Shown one piece after another: positions 32,896 through 36,701 of a DNA stretch of 39,802 nucleotides (position 1 is the first letter of the stretch; each line of letters starts with the position of its first letter). Below the pieces are notes generated by a model, which saw only the letters and a program-made list of their open reading frames with translations, ran no database searches and had not been told where the DNA came from. This DNA is from Verrucomicrobiia bacterium (GTDB taxonomy: Bacteria > Zixibacteria > MSB-5A5 > DSPP01), in assembly GCA_035574275.1 (NCBI GenBank), contig DATLYY010000047.1, forward strand, positions 1 to 39,802, written 5' to 3'. Made by a program: the position numbers and the translations under genes.

Positions 32896-32958
32896 CGGAA
32901 AAACGCAAGTTTTTTTAGCCCTTAAACCGGGCTGGAAAATCCGTTGCTGGACAATGGC

Positions 32959-33570
32959 TTACAGGCGGGTCTGCAAGGTTTGATTTTCGGGATCCGTTTT
33001 CCACATTAAGGGATTGGCCCGGATGTATTCCCGGATTTTGTAAAGTTCCTGCCCGCTGCGGACAATGTGCTCGTAATAATTTCGCTGCCAAATAGGGCTA
33101 TGCAACAAATTTTCCCGGCAAATCCGGCTGACCGCGGCTTTGTAGGAACGAACGATTGATCCGACCGAATTTGGTGCCACCTTCTGATATTGGTACCGGG
33201 CGGTGCCTTTTTGGAAGGCGGGTTCAATATATTGAACCCCTACAATTTGATTACCCATTTGTTTTTGTAGGGGTTGAATATATTCAACCCGTTTTTCCAA
33301 AACGACAATTCCATGCAGATGGTTGGGCATGACCACAAAATCCTTCACCCGCGCATGGTCGAAGTGTTTGGGAATCTCCTTCCAGCAATCCCGCACCACT
33401 CGGCCAATCGCCGATAATTCCATCTTCCCGTTCCGAATATTACCAAACAAACACTCACGATTCTGCGTGCAAATCGTGACAAAATACGCCCCTTCCCCGG
33501 AATAATCGTATTCCGGAAGCCGAATCGATTTGCGGTGTTGCTTTTCCGGATCGAACTTCATATCGGACAT
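32959..33570 (-). CDS. REP-associated tyrosine transposase (RAYT, TnpA_REP)
   Basis: The 203-residue single-domain Y1 HUH transposase-like protein is normal size for a RAYT. The N-terminus KSIRLPEYDYSGEGAYFVTICTQNRECLFG is the family opening. The HUH motif is in MPNHLHGIVV (H84, H86) and the catalytic tyrosine is Y165 or Y166 in RNYYEHIVRS, followed by a helical C-terminus (YIRANPLMW). RAYTs cut and join single-stranded REP hairpins and are domesticated IS200/IS605 relatives. Residues about 94-116 are encoded by two REP-like palindromes and form an insertion between the HUH strand and the next helix (LEK/AFQKG), where other RAYTs have a short loop. The frame is intact. GTAGGGGC-type repeats elsewhere in this window are probable partners. 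Confidence 0.92.
   Translation of the reverse strand: MSDMKFDPEKQHRKSIRLPEYDYSGEGAYFVTICTQNRECLFGNIRNGKMELSAIGRVVRDCWKEIPKHFDHARVKDFVVMPNHLHGIVVLEKRVEYIQPLQKQMGNQIVGVQYIEPAFQKGTARYQYQKVAPNSVGSIVRSYKAAVSRICRENLLHSPIWQRNYYEHIVRSGQELYKIREYIRANPLMWKTDPENQTLQTRL
33220..33243 (-). repeat. REP-like palindrome inside the RAYT gene, copy 1
   Basis: A 20-base perfect palindrome, GGGTTCAATATATTGAACCC at 33220-33239, is joined to CCCCTAC, so on the minus strand it begins GTAGGGG. This is the header-plus-hairpin layout of the REPs in the 36 kb spacer. Confidence 0.85.
33267..33290 (+). repeat. REP-like palindrome inside the RAYT gene, copy 2 (inverted)
   Basis: GTAGGGG is followed by the arms of GGGTTGAATATATTCAACCC (33271-33290), a perfect palindrome. 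It lies 23 bases from copy 1 in the opposite orientation, making a BIME-like inverted pair that is translated as part of the transposase. Confidence 0.85.
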
Positions 33571-33588
33571 TTGGGGGTGCGCCGCGTC

Positions 33589-34013: not shown

Positions 34014-34037
34014 GTAAGGGCGAGGCATGCCTCGCCC
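34014..34037 (+). repeat. REP element
   Basis: GTAAGGG followed by a perfect palindrome GGGCGAGGCATGCCTCGCCC (34018-34037), in the short gap between yjbQ and the HAD phosphatase gene. It matches the spacer REPs except for one header base. Confidence 0.85.
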
Positions 34038-36165: not shown

Positions 36166-36188
36166 GTAGGGGCGAGGTCACCTCGCCC
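36166..36188 (+). repeat. REP element
   Basis: GTAGGGG header, then GGGCGAGG/CCTCGCCC arms with a TCA loop (36170-36188). First of the spacer array; its arms resemble the REP at 34014. Confidence 0.9.
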
Positions 36189-36310
36189 GGGCGGTGGGCG
36201 GCCTAATCACCAATCCCTAATCTCTAATCACTGTACTTTACCCCACCCCGTCCCCTTTTTCCGACGTTGCCCCCGTGTCGGTGCTTGCCCAATCCCTATT
36301 CCCTGTCTTT

Positions 36311-36335
36311 GTAGGGGCGGGCCTTGTGTCCGCCC
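36311..36335 (+). repeat. REP element
   Basis: GTAGGGG header; arms GGGCGGG and CCGCCC enclose CCTTGTGT. Preceded by CCAATCCCTATTCCCTGTCTTT, a lead-in that reappears at 39364-39385. Confidence 0.88.
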
Positions 36336-36353
36336 GCATTTGTATTTGTATTC

Positions 36354-36376
36354 GTAGGGGCGAACGGCGTTCGCCC
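36354..36376 (+). repeat. REP element
   Basis: GTAGGGG header; arms GGGCGAACG/CGTTCGCCC (36358-36376), a perfect palindrome with a single central base. Confidence 0.9.
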
Positions 36377-36425
36377 TCCCCCTTGTCATTCTGAGCATAG
36401 CGAAGAATCTGGCCTCCGCGCCAGG

Positions 36426-36472
36426 GGTTTTCCTGTCTCTGCAAATTCGCAATAAAAAATACAGCCCAAGCC
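36426..36472 (+). repeat. Direct repeat, copy 1
   Basis: About 47 bases starting GGTTTTCCTGT and ending with the exact 24-base core GCAATAAAAA...CAGCCCAAGCC (36449-36472). The second copy starts 128 bases downstream. Confidence 0.9.
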
Positions 36473-36491
36473 ACTCCCTTCTCTCACTTTC

Positions 36492-36540
36492 TGTCCCCCT
36501 GTACTTAAGGGGGACGAGGCCGCACGGCCGGAGGGGGTGG
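36492..36540 (+). repeat. Hairpin repeat, family B copy 1
   Basis: GTCCCCCT and AGGGGGAC form an eight-base stem, then ACGAGGCC, four bases, GGCCGGAGGGGGTG. The same unit recurs at 36709-36752. Confidence 0.85.
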
Positions 36541-36545
36541 TTTTC

Positions 36546-36570
36546 ATAGGGGCGGTTTTCCTGTTCCCGC
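36546..36570 (+). repeat. Degenerate REP element
   Basis: ATAGGGGCGG header with only a partly matching CCCGCG arm. It lies inside the interval between the two direct-repeat copies. Confidence 0.55.
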
Positions 36571-36600
36571 GAAGTTGCAATAAAAAATACAGCCCAAGCC
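36554..36600 (+). repeat. Direct repeat, copy 2
   Basis: Starts GGTTTTCCTGT and ends in the same exact 24-base core (36577-36600). A handful of mismatches separate it from copy 1 before the core. Confidence 0.9.
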
Positions 36601-36640
36601 CGTCCCTTTCTCGAAACGGAAAGGGGTTGGGCCACAAATC

Positions 36641-36665
36641 GTAGGGGCAGGTCTTGTGCCTGCCC
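36641..36665 (+). repeat. REP element
   Basis: GTAGGGG header; arms GGGCAGG and CCTGCCC with loop TCTTGTG (36645-36665). Confidence 0.9.
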
Positions 36666-36677
36666 GTTTTTGTCTTT

Positions 36678-36701
36678 GTAGGGGCGCATTGCCATGCGCC
36701 C
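36678..36701 (+). repeat. REP element
   Basis: GTAGGGG header; arms GGGCGCAT/ATGCGCCC with a TGCC loop (36682-36701). Confidence 0.9.

Follow-up and report, generated by a model that had tools for sequence, protein, structure and literature searches.

In-frame REPs in the hypervariable loop of TnpA-REP (RAYT) genes

The locus described here raises the question of why the gene of a RAYT, an enzyme that presumably mobilises REPs, carries REPs within its own reading frame. The palindromes could have arisen by chance in coding sequence, could mark the exceptional invasion of one gene, could be merely tolerated, or could be working parts of the gene. The window is the whole stretch of DNA analysed (39,802 nucleotides of a Zixibacteria genome). 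Its RAYT gene was compared with homologues in two sets that share few genes: a same-class set of 57 sequences, the window gene included, and a many-phylum set of 80 loci with named hosts. Loci with internal stops were left out of the protein alignments.

The RAYT gene and its internal REP pair

The gene (32959–33570, minus strand) is intact and encodes 203 aa. The HUH motif is H84-L-H86, WQR is at 161–163, and the catalytic Y182 is accompanied by N186 P187. H84xH86, W161 Q162 and Y182..N186 P187 are invariant or almost so across the homologue alignments. The protein matches NCBIfam REP_Tyr_transpos (1.2e-16, which is under that model's curated cut-off), Y1_Tnp (5.7e-4) and the TnpA-REP of structure 4er8 (profile match, E = 1e-6), which is the E. 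coli enzyme in complex with a REP hairpin. The same structure is the top Foldseek match (E = 3.7e-7) of an AlphaFold2 model built with 43 homologues. By its HUH, WQ and Y---NP motifs and its predicted fold the gene is a class 2 TnpA-REP (RAYT); an earlier note, made from the sequence alone, had called it a RAYT.

Model confidence is high in the core and low in residues 92–135 (33166–33297, minus strand), with pLDDT of about 45–50 across most of 101–130. This segment, delimited by the model and by length variation among homologues, is a hypervariable loop between the HUH strand (84–91) and the helix 136–154, and is predicted to be disordered. The earlier note had supposed a tolerant loop at this place; the REPs do lie there, in the region that the model leaves disordered.

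Two perfect 20-bp palindromes occupy the loop, GGGTTCAATATATTGAACCC at 33220–33239 and GGGTTGAATATATTCAACCC at 33271–33290. Internal REP 1 (GTAGGGGTTGAATATATTCAACCC on the plus strand, 33267–33290) encodes on the minus strand residues of RVEYIQPLQ and has an extended foot, TTGTTTTTGTAGGGG (33259–33273), common to other copies in the genome. Internal REP 2 (GTAGGGGTTCAATATATTGAACCC, 33220–33243, minus strand) encodes residues of IVGVQYIEP. The GTAGGGG feet of the two face each other and the footed units are 23 bases apart; the inverted pair described in the earlier note is thus present as claimed. The pair is read in frame, also as claimed, although its span is residues 94–117 (...KRVEYIQPLQKQMGNQIVGVQYIEPAF...) and not 94–116. 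The stems are one symmetrical G/C swap apart, and both therefore stay fully paired. In RNA and DNA folds the pair forms one long hairpin with two interruptions. The RNA fold, which the earlier note had proposed as a check, is stable (-41.7 kcal/mol, z = -7.9). The full inverted structure, defined by self-match and by both folds, extends over 33209–33302 and has a DNA-fold z of -8.4. It includes outer 8-bp arms, TTCCAAAA/TTTTGGAA, at 33209–33216 and 33295–33302, beyond the REP pair; these arms may be a target-site trace or may be due to chance.

Related copies are dispersed in the genome. The pattern GTAGGGGYNNAATATATTNNRCCC (at most 2 mismatches) gives 22 genome matches, both in-gene copies counted, and the reversed control gives 0; the extended foot (at most 1 mismatch) gives 34 matches vs 2 for the control. 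The genome holds many GTAGGGG...CCC hairpins with differing cores. The window palindromes combine a GTAG foot at the hairpin base with dispersed copies and are therefore true REPs, which bears out the identity first assigned to them.

Further REPs are present elsewhere in the window. Four different GTAGGGG REPs lie on one strand within ~530 bp (36170–36701; cores CGAGGTCACCTCG, CGAACGGCGTTCG, CAGGTCTTGTGCCTG, CGCATTGCCATGCG), and an AT-core REP, GTAGGGGCCGAATACATTCAGCCC, at 2350–2373 is 1 mismatch off the loop-type pattern. The same genome (G000) has at least six RAYT paralogues and a more distant one (contigs C3, C16, C22, C47, C48, C60 and, for the distant one, C55), and their loop contents differ. 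The paralogue on C3 has a loop REP pair nearly identical to a pair upstream of the gene; that on C16 has the same REP in its loop as immediately outside its coding sequence.

No REP matching the internal ones is found in the immediate flanks of the window gene (within about 800 bp). The sole REP-like flanking hairpin within this distance, GGGCGAGGCATGCCTCGCCC at 34018–34037, is unlike the loop REPs; it is the third perfect 20-bp palindrome of the window. A RAYT flanked by cognate REPs, the arrangement of a REPtron, is not seen over the about 800 bp checked. In a same-genus genome (G001, sister species) an rpoE-like gene and yjbQ are adjacent, with no RAYT between them. By blastn against contig C38 of that genome, homology stops at 32914 and 33585 of the window, 44 and 14 bp beyond the gene; the lineage-specific segment (32915–33584) is therefore essentially the RAYT gene alone. 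One relative was compared, and the difference would be either a gain in the window lineage or a loss in the sister. The sister yjbQ is matched as two overlapping pieces (G001:C38:46199-46608), one with an internal TGA, which suggests a frameshift or an assembly error.

Loop REPs across the gene family

The HUH-to-helix segment of the 57 same-class sequences is 28–124 aa long and is not conserved in sequence. Under a strict rule (a hairpin 8 bp or longer with a GTAG foot) a REP is present in the loop of 45 of the 57, and under the same rule no REP is found in the remainder of any of these genes. In the many-phylum set the strict rule gives a loop REP in 54/80 loci, and a looser rule (any hairpin of at least 8 bp) in 65/80. 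REP density in this set is 7.6 per kb in loops vs 0.16 per kb in the remaining gene. About a fifth of loops are without a clear hairpin. Orientation, frame and number of REPs and loop length differ widely.

The in-frame loop REP is a general habit of this gene family and not a one-off invasion. The exceptional self-invasion of a single gene supposed in the earlier note is not upheld, given the frequency of loop REPs in both sets. Its proposed alignment does separate the window gene from relatives that lack these particular residues. Shared residues across most homologues, which would have made the feature ancestral and which the note offered as refutation, are not seen: the site is common, and the REP in it differs.

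Chance palindromes in coding sequence have practically no probability as an explanation, and no point was found in their support. Perfect 20-bp palindromes number 3 in the real window and 0 per shuffled window (20 shuffles), and chance is ruled out by the genome copies (22 vs 0 in the control) together with the enrichment of REPs in homologue loops.

Some loops have grown. Those of L069 (G026:C33) and L088 (G013:C79) reach 107 and 90 aa and hold two or three REPs; in L088 the REP-encoded peptide is repeated. Descent of the RGTxxRAPT-type loops from one insertion, inherited within one clade, was considered and is not supported; core identity is 49% within the type vs 47% to the rest, and the core tree does not resolve it.

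Stem pairing, reading frame and cognate REPs

Recurrent loop motifs, RGTARRAPT and VGAGLKPAPT, could indicate that selection acts on the peptide and not on the DNA, the REP-derived residues aiding DNA or partner binding. This is very improbable, since one palindrome occurs in different frames, residues change where base pairs are retained, and model confidence in the loop is low. Palindrome GTAGGGGCGTATTGCAATACGCCCCTAC is read as GVLQYAPT or VGAYCNTPL, and GTAGGGGCACGGCATGCCGTGCCCCTAC as GTACRAPT or GARHAVPL; the gene pairs L163 and L182, and L132 and L161, have an identical palindrome in a different frame. Reading frame requires 37 changes on the core tree, which is poorly resolved. Among 28-base REPs picked by their feet alone, 75% of inner pairs are complementary vs 35–37% in shuffled ones, and this holds in each of the two frames that occur. 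In a 21-row subset 96.8% of inner pairs are formed vs 58% shuffled, with 56 compensatory cells vs 15 expected; the rows are related to some degree. Rows with the stem centred elsewhere were left out of the subset, and 96.8% is therefore somewhat flattered; 75% is the unselected figure. The DNA stem is conserved by compensatory change; peptide and frame are not. A conserved ancestral peptide was also considered and is ruled out, because the loops are unlike in sequence and the frames differ.

The loop REP resembles the REPs outside its own gene. Mean similarity between loop and same-locus flanking REPs is 0.73 vs 0.16 permuted (sd 0.04, n = 28) in the same-class set and 0.80 vs 0.29 permuted (sd 0.04, n = 32) in the many-phylum set; the observed value is reached by no permutation in either set. 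Similarity of loop REPs also tracks that of the loop-removed protein core (Mantel r = 0.42; at most 0.13 under permutation). Both permutation tests ignore relatedness. The loop REP thus matches the REPs beside its own gene far above chance. Because the flanks of the window gene hold no such match, cognacy is established at the level of the family and presumed for the window gene. The closest relatives of the latter by core identity do not have the same REP core; in the poorly resolved tree it groups with two genes (L058, L146) whose stems resemble its own in one half, TTGA or TTCAA.

Retention of the loop REP

REPs were tallied at the 63 loci that have 1 kb or more of sequence to either side. 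They occur in loop and flanks at 26 loci, in the loop only at 27, in the flanks only at 5 and in neither at 5. Loop-only loci are significantly commoner than flank-only ones by a sign test that ignores relatedness (P = 1e-4). In at least five genomes (L163, L170, L124, L149, L053) the loop palindrome is the sole copy detected by pattern search with 0–2 mismatches; that of L053 has one further two-mismatch relative with a different core. Several of these genomes are incomplete MAGs and the patterns are tight, so that extra copies may be missed. Other genomes are multi-copy (16 matches in L182, 26 in L171).

The loop is very probably a place where the cognate REP of the enzyme is tolerated, by which gene and substrate are physically linked; the descriptive part of this reading, that REPs of the gene's own kind sit in a tolerated loop, is held with equally high confidence. 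REPs would enter when the enzyme itself cleaves and transfers single strands at REP hairpins, and would survive in the gene because the loop lies off the active site. They would be kept in step with the recognition specificity of the enzyme, either because other REPs repeatedly re-insert there or convert them or because selection acts on them directly; gene and substrate would therefore be inherited together. The window REPs are a putative substrate, on which the RAYT presumably acts.

Why the REP is retained is less certain. Pure tolerance with local hopping supposes a cis-acting enzyme whose insertions survive only in the disordered loop and bring no benefit. It agrees with the frequency of same-type flanking REPs, with the modelled disorder of the loop and with the known occurrence of REPs within unrelated genes (PMC3733652). 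It predicts flanking REPs at least as frequent as internal ones, and the opposite is observed (27 loop-only vs 5 flank-only); perfect stems in genomes with no other detected copy also speak against it. This account falls somewhat short of an even chance, and the same tentative grade is given to retention by tolerance with turnover.

A REP hairpin selected as a functional internal site in gene or mRNA is a possible but rather doubtful alternative. The protein could bind its own transcript or its single-stranded gene and limit expression, or the hairpin could slow translation or trigger mRNA decay. The loop-only excess (27 to 5), the five genomes in which the loop copy is the sole one detected, the stems maintained through compensatory change and the very stable fold (z = -7.9) favour it. 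A fixed regulatory site would not be expected to vary so widely in orientation, frame, REP number and loop length, and about a fifth of loops lack a clear hairpin.

In its stronger form this reading would make the internal REP functional within the gene and not debris, with selection on its pairing as DNA or RNA whether or not dispersed REPs exist; the REP would serve either as a substrate carried to new genomes or as a site of self-control. This too is doubtful. If it holds, a RAYT moving to a new genome brings its substrate along, or the enzyme controls its own gene. The benefit of a gene-substrate linkage is compatible with tolerance and turnover as well as with a functional site. The matter bears on how RAYTs and REPs remain matched and how RAYTs persist without self-mobility. 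A REP within the reading frame of most genes of the family, at times the sole genome copy, is a natural link of enzyme and substrate.

In-frame REPs are already published, both within tnpA-REP genes of subclass 2.4 (Quentin et al. 2018, PMC6006769) and in many other, unrelated genes (Di Nocera et al. 2013, PMC3733652); the phenomenon itself is therefore already known. Added here are the same-locus match, the compensated stems across frames, the loop-only excess and the single-copy genomes, together with a window gene that the sister species lacks and whose flanks hold no REP like its own. The first four were not found in the main texts consulted; the supplements of the prior papers may hold some of them already.

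The window gene is like the TnpA-REPs of subclass 2.4 (PMC6006769), which is Bertels RAYT group 4. It shares with them the HUH/Y1 core, the WQ and Y---NP motifs, GTAG-footed REPs, the insertion of variable length between beta3 and alphaC and in-gene REPs in frame. The subclass has NH[IFV]H and YIxNNP, and the window gene NHLH and YIRANP; YIxNNP is present in only 32/80 of the homologues found with the window gene. Unlike subclass 2.4, the window gene is without a flanking REP that matches those in its loop, and its REPs are footed on one side only and paired feet-to-feet. In biochemical work on other TnpA-REPs (PMC8266576), GTAG and the hairpin each matter for cleavage next to the REP; the proteins concerned are of groups 2 and 3, unlike the group of the window gene. 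The E. coli TnpA-REP (REPtron, 4er8) is alike in fold, catalytic layout and association with GTAG-footed REPs, but its REPs flank the gene, and a REP-bearing loop insertion is a feature of subclass 2.4 (PMC6006769). REPINs (Bertels and Rainey 2011, PMC3116915) likewise consist of two inverted REPs able to form a single long hairpin; the window pair differs in lying within coding sequence, and its mobility as a unit is conjectural. Intragenic GTAG/CGTC REPs and Rickettsia RPEs (PMC3733652) are also palindromic elements translated in frame. Their host genes are unrelated, whereas here the host is the presumed REP-mobilising enzyme itself and the site recurs across the RAYT family.
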